Of a stretch of DNA of 64,000 nucleotides, positions 2,542-12,437 are shown piece by piece. Both the position numbers and the translations under genes were made by a program. Each line of letters starts with the position of its first letter. The stretch's first letter is position 1. A model generated the notes under the pieces. The model made no database searches. It was not told the DNA's origin and worked only from the letters and a program-made list of their open reading frames with translations. Origin of the DNA: Streptomyces sp. ISL-87 (GTDB lineage Bacteria > Actinomycetota > Actinomycetes > Streptomycetales > Streptomycetaceae); assembly GCF_018614095.1 (NCBI RefSeq), contig NZ_JAGGOY010000059.1:48626-112625 (forward strand), given 5' to 3'.

Positions 2542-2681
2542 CGCTGGTAACCCCCGAGGATCGGCTGATGTCGCCGTTGTGACGTTCAGGGTCCCGCCGC
2601 GGGTTTCGCTTCCGCGGTCCCGAGCCGATCCCGATGCGGTCACGGTCCGGCGTCGGTGATCGGGTCTGAGACGATGTGTCC

Positions 2682-4130
2682 ATGCACGAAGCGGACATGC
2701 GTACGGATCGGACGGGCGGCACCCGCCATGTCGTCGTGATCGGCGGCGGTATCGCAGGCCTCGCGGCGGCCCACCGGCTGCTCGCCGACGGCGCCCGGGT
2801 CACGCTCCTGGAGGCCGGACCCCGGCTCGGCGGCAAGCTTCACGCGGGCGAGCTCGCCGGCCTCCCCGTCGACCTCGGCGCCGAATCCGTGCTCGCCCGC
2901 CGTCCCGAAGCCGTGGAGCTCGCCCGGGCCGTGGGCCTCGGCGACGCCCTCCAGCCGCCCGCCACCGCCACCGCCCACCTGTGGACCCGGGGCGCGCTGC
3001 GGCCCATGCCGCGCGGCCATGTCATGGGCGTCCCCGGCGACTTGGGGCCGCTGGCCGCCTCCGGGGTGCTCTCCGCCGAGGGAATGGCCCGGATCGAGGC
3101 CGAGCACGCGCTGCCGCCCGCCGAGATCGGCGAGGACGTCGCGGTCGGCGAGTACGTCGCCGCCCGGCTGGGCCGCGAGGTCGTCGACCGGCTGGTGGAA
3201 CCGCTGCTCGGCGGGGTCTACGCCGGCAACGCCTACCGGATCTCGATGCGGGCCGCCGTGCCCCAGCTCTTCGAGGCCGCACGCACCCACACCCTGCTGG
3301 GCGACGGCGTACGGGACCTCCAGCGCAAGGCGGCGCAGCAGCCGCAGGCGGCCGGTCCCGTCTTCGCCGGCATCGACGGCGGCATCGGACGGCTGCCGCT
3401 CGCCGTGGCCGAGGCCTGCCGCTCGGCCGGGGCGCGGATCCTCACCGGCACGCCCGTGCGCGAGGTCGTCCGTACCGCCGAGGGCTGGCGGGTCATCGCC
3501 GACGCGGAGGCCATCGAGGCCGACGGTGTGGTGCTGGCCACCCCGGCCGGACCCGCCGCCCGGCTGCTGGACGGGCTCGCACCGGCCGCGGCCACCGAGC
3601 TGCGCGCGGTGGAGTACGCCTCGATGGCCCTGGTCACGATGGCCTTCCGGCGCTCCGACCTGCCCGACTCGATCACCGGCGGCGGCGCCAGCGGATTCCT
3701 CGTACCGCCCGTGGACGGCCGGACCATCAAGGCGTCCACCTTCTCCAGCAACAAGTGGTCCTGGTCCGGCGCCGACCCCGAACTGTTCCTGCTGCGCACG
3801 TCGGTGGGCCGCTACGGCGACGAGAAGGACCTCACGCGTGAGGACGCGGAGCTCGTGGAGGTCTCCCTCGACGACCTCGGCGAGGCCGTCGGCCTGGCGG
3901 CCCGGCCCGTCGCCTCCACCGTCACACGCTGGGACGGAGGGCTGCCCCAGTACCCCGTCGGCCACCTGGACCGCGTCGCCCGGATCCGGGCCGCCGTCGC
4001 GGCCCTGCCCGGCCTCGAGGTGTGCGGCGCACTGTACGACGGAGTCGGGATTCCGGCCTGCGTCGCGAGCGCCGGCAAGGCCGCCGACGCGGTGATGGCC
4101 GCGTTCGGCACCCCTGGCACAGACCACTGA
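2682..4130 (+). CDS. cgoX: Coproporphyrinogen III / protoporphyrinogen oxidase (HemY/CgoX type)
   Basis: A 482-residue FAD amine-oxidase-like protein that oxidises coproporphyrinogen III to coproporphyrin III in the actinobacterial/firmicute branch of heme synthesis. The dinucleotide-binding motif [14 protein letters not shown] is at about residue 20. The PPO signature region ([19 protein letters not shown]), the central substrate region and a C-terminal FAD motif ([22 protein letters not shown]) are all visible. It lies 23 nt upstream of hemQ, the last enzyme of the same branch, which supports the role. The start is uncertain: GTG at 2676, ATG at 2682 and ATG at 2697 are all in frame and none has a strong ribosome site. 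Confidence 0.93.
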
Positions 4131-4153
4131 TCGGCACACGGGACAATAGGCAC

Positions 4154-4867
4154 ATGACTGCACCAGAGAAGATTCCCAACGCGGGGAAGAAGGCCAAGGA
4201 CCTCAACGAGGTCATTCGCTACACCCTGTGGTCCGTCTTCAAGCTGAAGGACGTCCTCCCGGAGGACCGCGCCGGCTACGCCGACGAGGTCCAGGAGCTG
4301 TTCGACCAGCTGGCCGCCAAGGACATCACCGTCCGCGGCACCTATGACGTCTCCGGCCTGCGCGCCGACGCGGACATCATGATCTGGTGGCACGCCGAGA
4401 CCTCGGACGAGCTGCAGACCGCCTACAACCTGTTCCGCCGCACCAAGCTGGGCCGTGCGCTGGAGCCGGTGTGGTCGAACATGGCCCTGCACCGCCCGGC
4501 CGAGTTCAACAAGTCGCACATCCCGGCCTTCCTGGCCGACGAGGTCGCGCGCGACTACGTCAGCGTCTACCCCTTCGTGCGCTCGTACGACTGGTACCTG
4601 CTGCCCGACGAGGACCGCCGCCGCATGCTAGCCGACCACGGCAAGATGGCCCGCGGCTACCCGGACGTGCGCGCCAACACGGTCGCGTCCTTCTCGCTGG
4701 GCGACTACGAGTGGCTGCTCGCCTTCGAGGCCGACGAGCTCTACCGGATCGTCGACCTCATGCGTCACCTGCGTGCCTCCGAGGCCCGCATGCACGTCCG
4801 TGAAGAGGTGCCCTTCTACACCGGACGCCGCAAGTCCGTCGCCGATCTGGTGGACGGGCTCGCCTGA
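4154..4867 (+). CDS. hemQ: Coproheme decarboxylase HemQ (chlorite dismutase family)
   Basis: A 237-residue protein that converts coproheme to heme b, the final step of the coproporphyrin-dependent pathway. The family motifs are visible: [10 protein letters not shown] near the N-terminus, [16 protein letters not shown], the segment [24 protein letters not shown] with the catalytic tyrosine and the region around the proximal histidine, and [17 protein letters not shown] towards the end. The length matches the family. It follows cgoX closely and very likely shares its transcript. The start at 4154 matches the family N-terminus (MTAPEK); the longer upstream frame overlaps cgoX and is basic out-of-frame sequence. 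Confidence 0.95.
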
Positions 4868-4887
4868 TACCTCCCCTGGGGGGAAGG

Positions 4888-4911
4888 ACCGGAGGACTGA
4901 CCTTCTCCGGT
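4888..4911. terminator. Candidate bidirectional hairpin after hemQ
   Basis: Perfect 7-bp inverted repeat ACCGGAG/CTCCGGT with a 10-nt loop, placed between the convergent hemQ and TAP-hydrolase genes. There is no U-tract, as is common in streptomycetes. Confidence 0.45.
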
Positions 4912-4975
4912 GGATCGGGAGGCTGGGCCAGGCCCTCACCCCGAAACGACGCAGCCGGAGATCCCGCCCGGAAGT

Positions 4976-6751
4976 TCAGACGACTGGCGGCAGTGACACC
5001 CCGCGGGTGTTCGCTGCCCGGTCGTCCAACGACACCGGTGCGGGCTCCGGATGCGGCGCACATGTGACACGCCACCCTGGGGTGGCACCCGTCAGGATGT
5101 ACCGCTCCACGTGACGGTCCACGCAGTCATTGCGTCCGCCGGCCACTCCGTGGGCGCCGGCCTCCGTCTCCGTGACCAGCGCGGCCCCGCCGCCGAGCCG
5201 CCGCTGCAACTCCAGCGCACCCGGGTACGGGGTCGCGCCGTCCCGCTCCGCCGCGACGATGAGCGTCGGGGGGAGCGGCCCGGCGGTGCCGGCTCCCACC
5301 GCCACCGGCTGCTGCCGTTCCCTGACCGGCCAGTAGGCGCACGGCAGGTTCAGGAAGGCGTTCGCCCAGGTCTCGAAGGGCGCCCGGCGGGCGAGCGCGG
5401 TGCTGTCCCGGTCCCAGGTCTCCCAGCCGGCGGGCCACGGGGCGTCGTTGCACAGCACCGCCGTGTAGACGGCCGTTGCGTTCTCCTTCTCGGCCGCGGC
5501 TGCGGCTGCGGTTGTGTCCGGTCCGGCCTGCCCGGCCTGCCCGGCCTGCCCGGCCTCCCCGGTCTCCCCGGCCTGCTCCGCCAGCGGGCCCGGATCGCCG
5601 CCCAGGAAGGCGCTGAGTGCCGCCGCCCGCTCCGGCCAGACCTCGTCGTAGTACGCGGCCTGGAGGTACGCCGACTGGAGTTCGCCCGTGCCGACCACCC
5701 CGCCGGCCGGCGTACGGGCCACGGCCGACCGGACGCGCTCGTAGCTCGCCTGGACGGCGGCCGCTGTGGCGCCGAGGCGGTACGTGCCGTGGTGCCTGGC
5801 CGCCCAGGCGCGGAAGTCGTACCAGCGGCGCTCGAACCCCGCCGCCTGGTCGAGGTTGTTGCGGTACCAGACCCGGCGCGGGTCCGCGTTGACCACGGAG
5901 TCGAACACCATGCGGCGCACGTGCGCCGGGTAGAGCGTGGCGTAGACCGCGCCGAGGTAGGTGCCGTACGAGCCGCCCATGAAGGTCAGCCCCGGATCGC
6001 CGAGCGCGGCGCGCAGTACGTACAGATCGCGGACGTTGTTGAGGGTCGTGTAGTACGGGAGGGCCGCGCCGGTCCGCCGCGCGCAGCCGCGGGCGTACGC
6101 CCGGGCGGCGGCGATACGTTCCCTCTTGTACGCGGCGGAGGGCCGGACGGGGACCTGGGTGGGCCCCTGAGCCCGGGCGGCGGGGTCCTGGCAGGACAGC
6201 GGGGCGGAGCGGCCGACCCCGCGCGGGGCGTAGCCGACGAGGTCGTAGGCGGCCGCGACGCGCTCCCACTGGGGGCGGTCGGCGAGGAGCGGGAAGAACA
6301 TGCCGGAGGCGCCGGGTCCGCCGGGGTTGTAGACGAGTGAGCCCTGGCGGGCGGCCTTTCCGCGGCCGGTGGCAGTGACCCGGCTGACGGTGAGGGAGAT
6401 CTGCGGGCCGTCGGGACGGGCGTAGTCGAGCGGGACCCGGAGGGTGGCGCAGCGGACGGGGTCGGGCAGGGCCTCGGCCTCGGGGCAGGCACGGAAGTCG
6501 AGTGCCCCCGTGCGGTGGCCTCCGGCGGTTTCCTTGCGGGAGGCGGTCTCCGCGGTCTCCACGGCCTTGGCTGCCTGCGCGGCCTCCGCTGCGCGGCGAG
6601 CGACGAGTTCGGCTCCGGCGGTCTCGGCTGCCGCCCTCGCGGCTGGGGGGGCATCGGCCGGCGTCGCAGTGGCGCGGGCCGGGGCGGGGGCGCACAGGGC
6701 GAGGGAGAGCGCCGCCGCGGCGACTGCGTGACGGGTGAGCGGCGTCCGCAT
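4976..6751 (-). CDS. Secreted alpha/beta hydrolase of the tripeptidyl aminopeptidase (TAP) family
   Basis: A 591-residue exported hydrolase. The start at 6751 follows AAGGGG by 6 nt and begins a classical signal peptide (RTPLTRHAVAAAALSLALC, cut near APARA). The mature protein begins with an Ala-rich spacer. The hydrolase domain shows an oxyanion-hole segment (YNPGGPGASG), the nucleophile elbow GGSYGTYLG, and the TAP-like C-terminal domain with histidine in GAHGVAGG. These are typical of Streptomyces extracellular aminopeptidases that release tripeptides. An unusual feature is a repetitive Glu/Gly/Ala/Gln insert followed by an Ala run (coding DNA about 5500-5580) in the middle of the domain, probably a loop that grew by slippage. 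Confidence 0.87.
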   Translation of the reverse strand: MRTPLTRHAVAAAALSLALCAPAPARATATPADAPPAARAAAETAGAELVARRAAEAAQAAKAVETAETASRKETAGGHRTGALDFRACPEAEALPDPVRCATLRVPLDYARPDGPQISLTVSRVTATGRGKAARQGSLVYNPGGPGASGMFFPLLADRPQWERVAAAYDLVGYAPRGVGRSAPLSCQDPAARAQGPTQVPVRPSAAYKRERIAAARAYARGCARRTGAALPYYTTLNNVRDLYVLRAALGDPGLTFMGGSYGTYLGAVYATLYPAHVRRMVFDSVVNADPRRVWYRNNLDQAAGFERRWYDFRAWAARHHGTYRLGATAAAVQASYERVRSAVARTPAGGVVGTGELQSAYLQAAYYDEVWPERAAALSAFLGGDPGPLAEQAGETGEAGQAGQAGQAGPDTTAAAAAAEKENATAVYTAVLCNDAPWPAGWETWDRDSTALARRAPFETWANAFLNLPCAYWPVRERQQPVAVGAGTAGPLPPTLIVAAERDGATPYPGALELQRRLGGGAALVTETEAGAHGVAGGRNDCVDRHVERYILTGATPGWRVTCAPHPEPAPVSLDDRAANTRGVSLPPVV

Positions 6752-6764
6752 GATGGGCCCCTTC

Positions 6765-6789
6765 ATCTCATCGGCTGGTCCGATGAGAT
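6765..6789. promoter_or_regulatory. 10-bp inverted repeat upstream of the TAP hydrolase
   Basis: ATCTCATCGG and CCGATGAGAT flank a 5-nt spacer, 14-38 nt upstream of the hydrolase start. It is either an operator in the promoter/leader or an RNA hairpin near the ribosome site. No cognate regulator is evident. Confidence 0.45.
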
Positions 6790-7034: not shown

Positions 7035-8066
7035 CTAACTGCTGCAACTCGAACTGCTGCTGGAGCAGCTGGAACTACTGCCGCCACAACTGCTGCTGCT
7101 TCCGGAGGACCCGCAGCCGGACCCGGAGGAACAACTGCTCCCCGACGAAGCGCAGCTCGATCCGGACCCACAGCTCGACCCGCCCCCGGACCCGCCGCCG
7201 TCGCTGCTCGCGCACCAGACGACCGGCAGGATCTCGGCGCAGGAGTGGGACGAGTGGGAGGTGTGGGACGAGTGGGAGGTGTGGGAGGTGTGCGAGCGCG
7301 ACTGGGCCGCGGCCAGCCGGGTGCCGCGCGCGGCCGGCACCAGCTGCTCGCGCAGGTACGGGTCCCGCAGCCCGCGCAGCCCGAACAGCGCCGTCTGCAC
7401 GTGCGCGCTCTGGTCGAGCCTGTAGTGCTCCCGGATCCCGTGCAGCGCCGCCCGTCCCGCCGGGGTGACCCGCTGCTTGGCCCGCGCGGCGCCGGCCGCG
7501 CCCATGACGATGCCGCCCACGAGCGCGAGGAACACCTTGACGATGAACGGCACCTGGGGCCCGGAATCCAGCGCCAGCGCGACGAACGTGACCGGCAGCG
7601 AGAGCGCCAGCAGGATTGCGCACACCACGGCCTGGGTCACCCCCCAGCGCCGCCACTTCCGCCCGGAGCCGGGCAGGGCGATCAGCCCGCGGGCGGCGAG
7701 CGCGTCCCCGGTCTCCTGGACGGCCGGGCCGAGCATCGCGGCGTACCGCACCTGGTACAGCCACCCGGAGGGCGCCGACCCGTGCGCCTGGAGCACGGCG
7801 CGCTCGGCGACGTCGCGGGCCCGCGCCCCCGGCCGGACGTGGACGATGCCGGGACCGCCGACCATCAGCCGGCCGTCCCCGAGCATGGAGACGAGCGCGG
7901 CGTCGACCACGGCCCCGGGGCCGCCCGCCATGAACGCGGCCTCGGACAAGTCGTGCAGCCGCGGCGCGGGCCCGGTCGCCGACGGCCGCGCCCGGCTGAG
8001 CCCGCGGAACAGGAGCACGGTGGACACGATGACGGCGACCCAGATCGCCAGGGCGAGGAGGTTCAC
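7035..8066 (-). CDS. TIGR04222-like membrane protein with His-rich and Cys-rich C-terminal tail
   Basis: A 343-residue protein with a GTG start at 8066 that overlaps the stop of the upstream DUF692 gene in a GTGA motif, so the two are translationally coupled. It has an N-terminal membrane helix (about residues 2-19), a soluble domain, and two further helices near residues 145-195. The end is remarkable: a Ser/Thr/His repeat (residues about 258-276, six histidines spaced by two or three residues) is followed by 59 residues made almost only of Ser, Gly and Cys, with eight cysteines at 6-14 residue intervals. Low-complexity Cys-rich tails are a known trait of TIGR04222 proteins. Given its DUF692 partner, the tail is a plausible substrate for oxidative cysteine modification or a metal-binding segment; this is inference. 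Confidence 0.8.
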
Positions 8067-9415
8067 GCTGCCCTCCCTACGAGGGCCCGGGCCCAGCGGA
8101 CGACACGGCGGGGCGGGCGGGCCCCGGCCCGGTCCTGCCACCAGGTGGTGAGGCGACGCCGGGCGGCCGGGTCGGCCGGCAGGTCGCGGATCAGCAGATG
8201 CTCGGCGAAGTCCAGTGCGTCCCGGCGGTATCCGGCCGTCATGGGGCGGTGCCGGGCGTACGCGAGGAACGCCTGCCGGTACGCCTCCTCGCCGCCCAGG
8301 ATCCCGGGCAGCTCGGGCGCGACCTTCGCCACGACCCCGGCCCGCTTGGCGGCCAGCGCCCGCGCCTGCACCCGAATCCGCTGCCGGTCAAACCCCTCGG
8401 GCACCGGCGTCCCACCCACCAACGCCGACAACAACGCGGCCTGCCCCAGCCCAACCCGCACCCGCGCCCCCTCCAGCCCGGCGGCCCCGTCCGGCCCCGC
8501 CGCGCCCTCCGGCCCGTCCAGCCCCGCCGGCGTTTGAGGCGCGGGGTCCGGGGCGGAGTCCCGGTTTCGGGAAGGGGCGGGGTGGGGGAGAAGCCCCGCA
8601 GGGCCGCCCACCACCCCCCGAATCGCGGCCAGCTCCGCCGCCAGCTCCCCCTCCGGCGGAAAGTCGTCGTCCCGCTCCAGCAGCACCCCCGCCGGCACTA
8701 CCCGCGAGCAGAGCTCGGCCAGCACATCCAGCACCACCCCCGGCACAGGATGCGCATGCGTGTCATGCCACACCCCACCCCGCTCCACGCCCCCGGCAAC
8801 ATGCACGTACGCCAGCGCCTCCAGCGGAATCGCGTCCAGCACGCCCGCCGGGTCCTCCCCCCGGTTCACCCGGTTCGTGTGCAGGTTCGCCACGTCGATC
8901 AGCAGCCGCACCCCGGTCCGCTCGACCAGCTCCGTCAGGAACTGCCCCTCCGTCAGCTCCTCCCCGGGCCAGGAGATCAGCGCGGCGATGTTCTCCAGCG
9001 CCAGCGGCACCGGCAGCGCGTCCTGCGCGATGCGCACGTTCTCGCACAGCACGTCCAGCGCGTCCCGCGTGCGCGGGACCGGCAGCAGGTGCCCCGCCTC
9101 CAAGGCCGGCGACGAGGTCCGTACGAAGGCGATGTGCTCAGTGACGAGCGGCGCCCCCAGCGCCACCGCCCGCTCCCCGAGCGCGGCCAGCTTCTCCGGG
9201 CCGGGCCGGTCGGCGCCGCCGAGGCCCAGCGAGACACCGTGCGGCACGACCCGCACCCCGCGCTCGCGCAGCCGCAGCAGCGACGCCGGCAGGTGGCCCG
9301 GACAGATGTTCTCGGCCACCACCTCGACCCAGTCCAGCCCCTCCAGCCGCTCCACCGCGTCCGCGATCTCCGGCCGCCATCCGATGCCCACCCCCAGGTG
9401 TGCCATGGGCTTCAT
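8063..9415 (-). CDS. DUF692/MNIO-family multinuclear iron enzyme with SCO6045-type C-terminal domain
   Basis: A 450-residue protein. Residues about 1-270 form the DUF692 TIM-barrel fold, the family of MbnB and TglH, which use two or three iron atoms to modify cysteines in peptides. Candidate metal-binding or conserved segments are visible in order: [46 protein letters not shown] and [10 protein letters not shown] Pro/Ala-rich linker leads to a C-terminal helical domain (last about 130 residues, with the [14 protein letters not shown] segment) of the kind found in the S. coelicolor SCO6045 group, possibly standing in for the separate partner protein of other MNIO systems. The stop overlaps the start of the Cys-rich membrane gene. 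The ATG at 9406 is an alternative start. Confidence 0.85.
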
Positions 9416-10737: not shown

Positions 10738-10878
10738 CGCGTGCCTCGCGCAGCCGCAGCAGGGACTCGGGCAGGTGCCCCGGACAGAGGTTCTCGGCCA
10801 CTACCTCGACCAGTCCAGACCCTCCAGCCGCTCGACCGCCTCAGCGATCTCCGGCCGCCACCCGATGCCCACCCCCAA
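10738..10878 (-). pseudogene. Copied 5' end of the DUF692 gene
   Basis: About 140 bases closely match the first 45 or so codons of the DUF692 gene at 9260-9400 ([20 protein letters not shown], then VAENLCPGHLPESLLRLRE after a one-base loss near 10811). Divergence at many third positions suggests an old copy or import of a homologous allele, not a recent duplication. It is cut off by the transposase remnant on one side and by a TTTGAGGTTCC junction on the other; the same 11-mer also occurs at 9509-9519. Confidence 0.85.
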
Positions 10879-10894: not shown

Positions 10895-11450
10895 TCACTC
10901 CCAGGGCTTGAACAGCCACTTCGGGGAGTTCTCGGTGCACTCCTGATAGACCACGGCGGAGCCGTTGCGACGGCTGCCGCCCGCCACCCCGACACAGTGC
11001 TCGCTCTTGATCAGGAAGCGGTCCCCGCTGCCGCGCAGCGTCCAGTCCGCCGTCTGGTCCGCACAGTCCGCCTGCACGATGTCGGTGCCGGGTTCGAACT
11101 GTTCCCCCACCAGTGCGAGGCACTTGTCGCTGTGCTGGGCCCGGAGCCTGACGAACAGCCATTGGTCGGTGCGTTGCCCGGGGGGCCGGTCCTCCAGCTC
11201 CCCGAAGGGCCGGTCGGCCGCGTTCGTGACCCGCCACCGCTGGTCCGTGCAGGCAGTCCCACTGGACCACCTCCGCGCCGGAGCGCAGGGAGGAGCCCGC
11301 GACGCTCAGGCACTTGCCGCCCGGGGTGCGGATCTCGTAGTACTGCACGGCAGCGTGGGCCCGACCCACACTCAGGGCCAGGAACTGCGCGACGAGGATC
11401 CCGAGGACCGCGGCCACGCGGGCCGCGGGACGCCAGGGCATGCCGGTCAT
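10895..11450 (-). pseudogene. Secreted ricin-type beta-trefoil lectin, frameshifted
   Basis: The gene starts at an ATG with AGGAGGACGT just upstream and encodes a signal peptide (hydrophobic core VAAVLGILVAQFLAL, cut near GRAHA). The ricin-B-like repeats follow: YYEIRTPGGKCLSV...VQWDC, then WLFVRLRAQHSDKCLAL...VQADC, then FLIKSEHCVGV...VYQEC, ending SPKWLFKPWE. The reading frame breaks at 11249-11256, where GCAG is present twice in tandem. Removing one copy restores a continuous 183-residue protein. All cysteine and QW-type positions survive, so the break is recent or a sequencing error. Intact, it would be a small extracellular carbohydrate-binding protein. Confidence 0.85.
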
Positions 11451-11594: not shown

Positions 11595-12437
11595 TCAGCG
11601 CAGGCCCAGGCCCGCTTCGAGCCGCCCCCGCAGCGCCGGATGGTCCGCGATCACCGTCGCCGACCCGGGGGCGATCTCCGTGAAACCGGCGTCCCGGACC
11701 ACCGGCAGCCCGCTCCCGCTCAGCTCCGCCCACCGCTCGCGCGCGGCCGTCCGTACGGCCAGCCGGAAACCGGAATCTCGCCACGCGATTCGCTCCGGGC
11801 CGGTCAGCTCCCACCACGCCAACTGCGCCCCGTGCCCCGCCTGGGCCATCGCCTTGCCGGCTGACATCTCCACGTCCGGGTTGAGCCAGAGCACCGGAAC
11901 TCCCGCCTCCGCCGGACTGACCGGCTCCGGGTCGTCCAGATCGGTTCCCGACACCTGGAGCTTCGCCAGTTCCTTGGGCCAGCCGTCGAGCGGCACCGGC
12001 GGGAAGACGCGTACCTCCGACCCGCCGCCGTGCACCGTGACACCCGGCAGGGTCTCCGCCTTGCGCCACTCCGCCCCGCGCGCCCGCCGGACCACCTTCC
12101 GGATCCGCGCGTCCTGCCAGTCGCGGACCGCCGCGGCCCATTCGCCCTCGCCCTGCGCCCGTTCGTCGCTCAGCAGGACCAGCACCGCGCGGGCCGCCGT
12201 CTCCAGCGCGTCCGTCCGGGCCGGCGGCCCGGCCTTCTCGATCCGCACCACCAGCGGCAGCACGAACTGCGGGGCCTCGTCACGGGCGACGCGCTCCTGC
12301 CGGAACGGGCTGTCCGCCCCGACAGCCGGCACGTCGGCGGGAACGGCGGCGGGAACGGCGGCGGGGACGTCGGCGGGGCTGTCTGCGGGCACGTCGGCGG
12401 GGGTGTCTGCGGTGTGGTTCGTGTGCTGGCTGCTCAT
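11595..12437 (-). CDS. Peptidyl-tRNA hydrolase 2 (PTH2)-like protein
   Basis: A 280-residue protein. The first 50 residues carry a Pro/Ala/Asp/Val repeat (PADVPA units) of low complexity. The middle is helical, and the C-terminal 115 residues match the PTH2 fold: LWLNPDVEMSAGKAMAQAGHGAQLAWW contains the K...QAGHGA signature of the family, and [26 protein letters not shown] resembles the conserved end. PTH2 enzymes recycle peptidyl-tRNA, but streptomycete members of this long form have not been characterised as far as I know. A 59-bp piece of its 3' end is also present at 9595-9653. Confidence 0.8.
   Translation of the reverse strand: MSSQHTNHTADTPADVPADSPADVPAAVPAAVPADVPAVGADSPFRQERVARDEAPQFVLPLVVRIEKAGPPARTDALETAARAVLVLLSDERAQGEGEWAAAVRDWQDARIRKVVRRARGAEWRKAETLPGVTVHGGGSEVRVFPPVPLDGWPKELAKLQVSGTDLDDPEPVSPAEAGVPVLWLNPDVEMSAGKAMAQAGHGAQLAWWELTGPERIAWRDSGFRLAVRTAARERWAELSGSGLPVVRDAGFTEIAPGSATVIADHPALRGRLEAGLGLR

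Follow-up and report, generated by a model that had tools for sequence, protein, structure and literature searches.

The window (the whole stretch of 64,000 nucleotides from Streptomyces sp. ISL-87 that was analysed) carries on its reverse strand a gene for a multinuclear iron oxidase (MNIO, DUF692) followed by a gene for a TIGR04222 membrane protein. The earlier note had proposed an MNIO-type enzyme coupled by a GTGA overlap to a membrane protein, and the coordinates and family assignments bear this out: the enzyme passes the Pfam profile PF05114 (MbnB_TglH_ChrH) with 254 bits against a cut-off of 25 (1.6e-75), and the membrane protein passes the NCBIfam profile TIGR04222 with 132.4 bits against a cut-off of 43 (1.8e-38). 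The gene caller, transmembrane score and profiles of this analysis are home-made. The MNIO gene has an ATG start with GAGGGGAC just before it, and its product is up to 84% identical to the nearest named Streptomyces matches. When the nearest possible start is taken, the 4-base overlap fits 16 of 34 Cys-tailed Streptomyces genes in one set and 27 of 49 in another; the named Streptomyces loci overlap with other genomes of the sample, so the two sets are not independent. The features of the pair are:

8063..9415 (−): MNIO (DUF692) enzyme gene, 450 aa, with a fused C-terminal partner-like domain (PF05114 1.6e-75, ORF limits)
8612..9394 (−): MNIO TIM-barrel domain (aligned to TglH)
8066..8476 (−): C-terminal all-helical domain of the enzyme, DUF2063-like/PME-type-2-like (homology to separate genes, models)
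8063..8066 (−): GTGA overlap of the MNIO TGA stop and the TIGR04222 GTG start (sequence)
7035..8066 (−): TIGR04222 membrane protein gene, 343 aa, GTG start (TIGR04222 profile)
7989..8063 (−): helix 1, taken as TM1, residues 2-26 (AF2 model, hydropathy)
7569..7661 (−): helix taken as TM2, residues 136-166 (AF2 model, hydropathy)
7476..7547 (−): helix taken as TM3, residues 174-197 (AF2 model, hydropathy)
7245..7292 (−): six-His Ser/Thr repeat, residues 259-274, not conserved (sequence, alignments)
7212..7217 (−): WC motif ahead of the tail, residues 284-285 (conservation in alignment)
7038..7214 (−): Cys-bearing Ser/Gly tail, residues 285-343 (modelled with low confidence, disordered)

The iron ligands of TglH are given as H71, H107, E151, D184, N187, H216, D229, H231 and E258 (PMC10880893); alignment to TglH finds all nine in the window enzyme as H59, H94, E141, D174, N177, H205, D218, H220 and E247, and these positions vary neither among the 14 relatives aligned nor among the 93 rows of a wider set. 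The enzyme thus keeps an intact iron site, with iron binding and oxidative activity being putative. The best named MNIO model is that of BufB (NF050167), at 175.3 bits under an equivalog cut-off of 310; the MbnB model TIGR04159 gives 23.1 against an equivalog cut-off of 325.

Residues 314-450 of the enzyme are homologous to separate ORFs that lie beside MNIOs in other members of the class; the proposal that an extra C-terminal domain of the enzyme takes the place of a partner protein is upheld. Among 60 Streptomyces MNIO loci this domain is joined to the enzyme in 55 and an ORF of its own in five (L083, L099, L101, L107, L113), and is thus encoded with the MNIO in all 60, as expected of the PME-type 2 partners described in PMC12452194; these are defined there as partners missed by the DUF2063 signature and structurally related to NGO1945 or TglI. 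The domain is fused in all 80 named Streptomyces loci (taken as best matches), both forms are present outside Streptomyces, and the MNIO tree has at least seven changes between fused and split states. DUF2063 is the only one of 24,736 Pfam models matched by more than one member of the domain (6 of 17, best 6.5e-4); the window domain itself gives 0.048, with residues 12-92 on model positions 3-81 of 83, and scores 14.4 against the gathering cut-off of 27.2 of PF09836 (DUF2063, PME-type 1). Through hhalign, a profile of the domain (170 domains, 100 after filtering, Neff 3.0) aligns to three DUF2063 proteins (L126, recognised by eye, and L271 and L272, which pass the Pfam cut-off) with E 0.0013 but a probability of only 18%, the best of 20 column shuffles of the same comparison giving E 0.071; against a single DUF2063-like protein the probability is 0.4%, which is uninformative. 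A PF09836 scan of 246 genomes recovers no such domain at E 0.01 per genome, a PDB sequence search with the domain profile returns zero matches up to E 10, and no RRE family appears in the Pfam and NCBIfam scans of the proteins.

The AlphaFold2 model of the domain (pLDDT 86, pTM 0.72) features seven helices. Foldseek places MbnC first of 350,542 chains, but at E 1.4 and a probability of 0.41; VIA places chain A of the TglHI holoenzyme first of 241 (Z 6.1, rmsd 5.7, 122 residues aligned), followed by two unrelated chains (Z 5.7, tied with TglHI chain A, and 5.1) and then MbnC (Z 4.7); by the tool's own warning, helical models often reach such Z values. Chain A is considered to be TglI and not TglH because its N-terminal part is helical. 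NGO1945 (3dee) is absent among the Foldseek and VIA matches listed. The domain is read as a partner because three lines, each of them weak, agree on MNIO partners: its sequence, its fold and its gene context. Together they suggest a fused MNIO partner domain.

A limited search of the literature on MNIO-partner fusions found no natural MNIO-DUF2063 fusion, which is no proof of novelty; the available text of PMC12452194 reports no MNIO-partner fusion, and the available parts of PMC12710340 and PMC13174530 hold nothing on the subject. As exceptions PMC13419390 names MovX, which has a fused RRE, and ChrH, which has an additional domain. MovX resembles the window enzyme in that a domain fused to the MNIO may stand in for a partner (PMC12452194, PMC13419390); however, that domain is called an RRE or winged helix, whereas the one in the window is DUF2063-like and helical. 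An engineered HvfB-HvfC fusion, in which the MNIO C terminus is joined to the partner N terminus as in the window, is more active than the co-expressed proteins (PMC13419390), and for this reason a natural MNIO-partner fusion makes sense; the HvfB-HvfC fusion is man-made, while that of the window is natural, and its partner-like domain is shorter, with no RRE recognised. The built-in helper domain appears to be a new detail of a published pairing.

The membrane protein ends in a tail (residues 259-343 of 343) with six histidines at every third residue and nine cysteines, seven of these in a Ser/Gly stretch, one in the WC motif and one directly after the His repeat. Of the six-His repeat followed by eight evenly spaced cysteines described in the earlier note, the histidines hold, while the cysteines number nine and those in the Ser/Gly stretch are spaced by 6, 7, 6, 9, 7 and 7. 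Nine Cys in 85 residues compare with 1.04% Cys in the 61 other genes called in the window (binomial p 2.8e-7, for a stretch chosen after the fact). The relatives carry Cys tails at the same position; the regular six-His repeat is absent from the other relatives' tails that were compared (mean H 0.04 in the His columns) and was dropped as part of the system. Relation to the His-Xaa-Ser protein HxsA2 (NF038296) was likewise dropped, at 18 bits against a cut-off of 48.

In 40 aligned Streptomyces proteins the identities of the nine window Cys columns are 0.03, 0.97, 0.54, 0.97, 0.97, 0.95, 1, 1 and 1; seven of the nine thus stand at 0.95 or more against an average of 0.47 for other tail columns, values that are inflated because aligners favour Cys-to-Cys matches. 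The WC motif is conserved in the alignment (W 0.97, C 0.97); the tail begins with it in 28 of 34 genes of one Streptomyces set and 48 of 49 of the other, compared to 2 of 33 genes elsewhere. In most Cys-tailed Streptomyces genes (29 of 34 in one set, 44 of 49 in the other) the tail Cys number seven to ten, and Cys tails are present also in several other families of the class. Over all three sets of Cys-tailed genes, the residue before a tail Cys is mostly Ser (441), Gly (236) or Trp (34), the residue after it mostly Gly (492), Ser (205) or Ala (39), and the spacing mostly 5-8. A small six-Cys protein near several loci was considered as the true substrate and set aside; its Cys spacing looks like that of a zinc ribbon.

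The AlphaFold2 model of the TIGR04222 protein (pLDDT 80.7) has long helices at residues 2-26, 136-166 and 174-197. The first two are separated by a small domain of helix and strand, and further helices reach to residue 261, ahead of a low-confidence tail. Fold comparison of this model yields helical matches (best Z 9.4), which were set aside as a common arrangement. By the transmembrane score, at least three segments are predicted for 31 of the 34 Cys-tailed Streptomyces proteins, and a possible fourth for 3 of the 34. The count of Lys and Arg favours an outside N terminus and an inside tail in all 31 Streptomyces proteins with at least three segments, at a mean of 10.9 on the three inside flanks and 0.5 on the two outside flanks, a contrast somewhat overstated because the outside flanks are shorter. 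Outside Streptomyces, a fourth hydrophobic segment is found in all of the first five members; a clipped scan of 24 others gives 16 with three segments, 4 with four or more and 4 with fewer.

The TIGR04222 model also matches three DUF2207 (YciQ-type) membrane proteins (1.2e-9, 2.9e-8, 6.0e-7), which carry DUF2207_C (PF20990) at 3.8e-33 to 6.9e-40; the window protein scores 12.7 on PF20990 against a gathering cut-off of 33. The three DUF2207 proteins have a Gly/Ser tail at the same place as the TIGR04222 protein, and differ from it by an extra N-terminal domain and the lack of a Cys-rich tail; predicted N-terminal segments are present in two of them. Since the N domain of DUF2207 proteins is presumably exported and their Gly/Ser tail sits at the same place, the relation points to a tail on the inside. 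Together, hydropathy, the positive-inside pattern and the DUF2207 relation predict that the Streptomyces Cys tail faces the cytosol, contrary to the published periplasmic reading; the cell-surface location suggested in the earlier note is thus probably not correct, and the predicted inward-facing tail appears to be a new detail.

MNIO genes are found in 19 of 296 genomes of a phylum sample, in 58 of 246 genomes of the class and in 142 of 150 Streptomyces genomes; TIGR04222 genes over the cut-off are found in 15, 69 and 129 of these, respectively. The 60 Streptomyces MNIO loci examined are the window, L051-L060 and L071-L119; of the 54 genomes G296-G349 all but five contribute, the five being left out for having no MNIO (G302, G340), a fragment (G321) or an MNIO near a contig end (G307, G310), and the other 11 loci are the window and those of the ten phylum-sample Streptomyces with an MNIO (G162 is without one). 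A Cys-tailed TIGR04222 gene is present in 33 of the 60, only a tail-less paralogue in 22 and no TIGR04222 gene in the stretch in five; for one of these, L096, this may be a contig effect, as the contig ends 0.9 kb after the MNIO. Both kinds of TIGR04222 gene occur together in 16 of the 60 loci. Of the 80 named Streptomyces loci, an uneven sample of best matches, 49 have the Cys-tailed gene; less than 2.5 kb follows the MNIO in 11 of the 80, eight of these being among the 31 without a Cys-tailed gene.

The association between tail and enzyme was assessed over 138 TIGR04222 genes, a gene being counted if at least 150 residues match the model and a Cys tail being defined by at least three Cys in the last 60 residues and a G+S+C+H fraction of at least 0.6 in the last 40; the tails of L012-L015 were scored by Cys alone, and L062-L065, marked tail-less in the MNIO tree because the profile missed their TIGR04222 gene, have their tails read as L012-L015 and are counted in the 138. 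All 63 Cys-tailed genes are in MNIO genomes, while the 75 tail-less genes divide into 52 in MNIO genomes and 23 in MNIO-less genomes (Fisher p 1.7e-7, ignoring kinship). Among the 61 non-Streptomyces genes, 29 of 40 with an MNIO are Cys-tailed compared to none of 21 without (Fisher p 1.1e-8, again ignoring kinship). One MNIO genome, G491, is counted as such on the strength of an MNIO fragment next to the gene, where the contig ends, though it is unlisted in the class MNIO scan. By the Cys-alone rule two of the 23 genes of MNIO-less genomes pass, L225, which is not Ser/Gly-rich, and L232, whose frame crosses masked bases. The tail state changes at least 12 times on the TIGR04222 gene tree; the tree-corrected comparison holds seven independent supported pairs, of which one or two are informative by genome and three or four by same stretch, all in the expected direction, with p never under 0.125, too few for significance.

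The expectation of the earlier note that TIGR04222 genes with Cys tails sit beside a DUF692 gene is partly confirmed: none of the 23 genes in MNIO-less genomes is tailed, and the MNIO lies in the same stretch (within the roughly 4-13 kb examined, not always as the next gene) for 59 of the 63 tailed genes, but elsewhere in the genome for four (G504, G579, G511, G629). In the reverse direction the pairing fails for 27 of the 60 Streptomyces MNIO loci, which are without a Cys-tailed neighbour. Cys-containing TIGR04222 genes in loci without an MNIO are reported in PMC12452194; as that paper, in its available text, counts any Cys and not Cys-rich tails, there is no direct conflict.

A gene cluster of Pseudonocardia whose TIGR04222 peptide is predicted to be ribosomally made and processed was mentioned in 2016 (PMC5183585). 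Antoine et al. 2025 (PMC12452194) count more than 3,500 TIGR04222 proteins, often with an MNIO gene nearby and with Cys in a Ser/Gly tail, and propose that subsets of them are MNIO substrates; the idea of a protein and not a small peptide as the candidate substrate is thus right and already published, and the reading of the pair as an undescribed system was dropped. The published pairs share with the window the two families, the Cys in a Ser/Gly C-terminal tail and an occurrence mostly in Actinomycetota, and one layout, peptidyl-tRNA hydrolase (adjamnio-II), MNIO, TIGR04222 (13 sequences), resembles that of the window. According to the same text, MNIO/TIGR04222 loci have no DUF2063 genes, at least 10% encode PME-type 2 partners, many seem to be without a partner gene and the tails are probably periplasmic; the window enzyme, by contrast, carries a partner-like domain of its own, and the tail beside it is predicted to be cytosolic. 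What PMC12452194 leaves open for TIGR04222 is whole-protein modification by an MNIO and the workings of partner-less loci; a one-chain enzyme with a built-in partner-like domain and an adjoining tailed protein would be a simple system for both questions. The bufferin system BufA/BufB/BufC is similar in that BufB is the nearest named MNIO model and several Cys are the targets; it differs in that the window enzyme is under the BufB cut-off and that the window has neither a Sec precursor nor a separate DUF2063-RRE partner.

MNIO enzymes are known for small peptides, and partner proteins such as MbnC and TglI deliver these to the iron site. The best explanation of the locus, to which a probability of roughly 0.6 is given, is that a cytosolic, self-partnered MNIO modifies the tail cysteines of the membrane protein through a putative chemistry, yielding a membrane-bound metal-binding brush. 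The iron oxidase with its C-terminal substrate-binding partner domain would be made together with the three-helix inner-membrane protein; the fused domain would most likely dock the cytosolic part of that protein and feed the tail Cys into the iron site. The enzyme would then oxidatively modify the Cys of the disordered Ser/Gly tail, probably to thiooxazole-like or related metal-binding groups, and the product would be a membrane-anchored brush, most likely for copper and facing the cytosol in Streptomyces, whose modified Cys would bind soft metal at the inner membrane face. Of this, the gene pair, the intact iron site, the homology of the fused domain to separate genes next to MNIOs and the co-occurrence of tail and MNIO by genome are observed; the partner role, the tail as substrate, the chemistry, the metal and the membrane side are inferred. 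A more specific form is put forward tentatively, as somewhat less probable than not: that the natural MNIO-partner fusion modifies up to ten Cys in place on the cytosolic tail and so creates a membrane-tethered, cytosol-facing soft-metal buffer, which if true would be an equivalent of bufferins at protein scale, on the other face of the membrane.

The MNIO may instead act elsewhere, on a tail-less TIGR04222 paralogue, a DUF4142 protein of the locus or the product of a distant gene, the Cys tail being an unmodified metal or redox tail that shares the operon. This is rather unlikely, as the Cys-tailed genes occur only in MNIO genomes; it draws on 26 Streptomyces loci without a Cys-tailed gene which form one group in the MNIO tree (SH-aLRT 93, no bootstrap), with L088 alone besides, where tail-less means that no Cys-tailed gene lies in the stretch examined and a tailed copy elsewhere in some genomes is possible. 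All 26 enzymes keep the nine iron ligands, and the simplest reading is one loss of the tailed gene with the enzyme kept for something else; another MNIO substrate is suggested because the clade keeps the enzyme with all ligands. A DUF4142-like gene lies by the MNIO in four of eight gene-called tail-less loci (L052, L053, L055, L060; the family assignment was checked for L052 alone), though also in the tailed L051.

Two other explanations concern the tail itself. An extracytoplasmic tail, modified before or during membrane insertion to give a periplasmic or surface copper sponge like bufferins, would agree with the periplasmic tails predicted in PMC12452194 and with the fourth hydrophobic segment seen in the 5 of 5 and 4 of 24 non-Streptomyces and 3 of 34 Streptomyces proteins; against the Lys and Arg pattern of 31 out of 31 Streptomyces proteins, the three long membrane-like helices of the AlphaFold2 model and the shared position with the DUF2207 tail, it is considered improbable. 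That the tail is a functionless product of low-complexity drift, associated with the enzyme by shared descent only, is highly improbable: the tail is missing in one large clade and in L088 and the phylogenetic pairs are not significant, but 7-10 Cys persist in the Streptomyces tails while other tail residues turn over, and Cys tails recur in other families of the class.

Several minor observations concern the surroundings of the pair. A piece of a second MNIO at 10740-10820 (−) (phmmer 1.3e-7) is encoded in a 198-aa frame upstream of the intact MNIO gene and appears to be a broken, incomplete copy. Between the MNIO and a PTH2-like gene at 11595-12437 (−) lies a short match to a ricin-type lectin domain (10895-11110 (−), 5e-5, below the cut-off); the PTH2-like gene is assigned to Pfam PF01981 in the window and to PF01195 in PMC12452194. 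On the other side, positions 2676-6766 hold a flavin amine-oxidase-family gene, a chlorite-dismutase-family gene and a TAP-like hydrolase that adjoin the pair, and genes matched to these by size alone lie near the pair in most other gene-called Streptomyces loci (L051-L060 range). We take the flavin amine-oxidase-family gene to be a protoporphyrinogen oxidase and the chlorite-dismutase-family gene to be HemQ. In L227:3220-4239 (G464) a TIGR04222 Cys tail runs directly into a remnant of the partner-like domain without an MNIO between them. A second kind of MNIO locus (L124, L125, L126, L271, L272) combines an MNIO, a DUF2063 partner and a Cys-rich protein that contains ELHVCMGLN; the partner passes the Pfam cut-off in L271 and L272 and is recognised by eye in L126.
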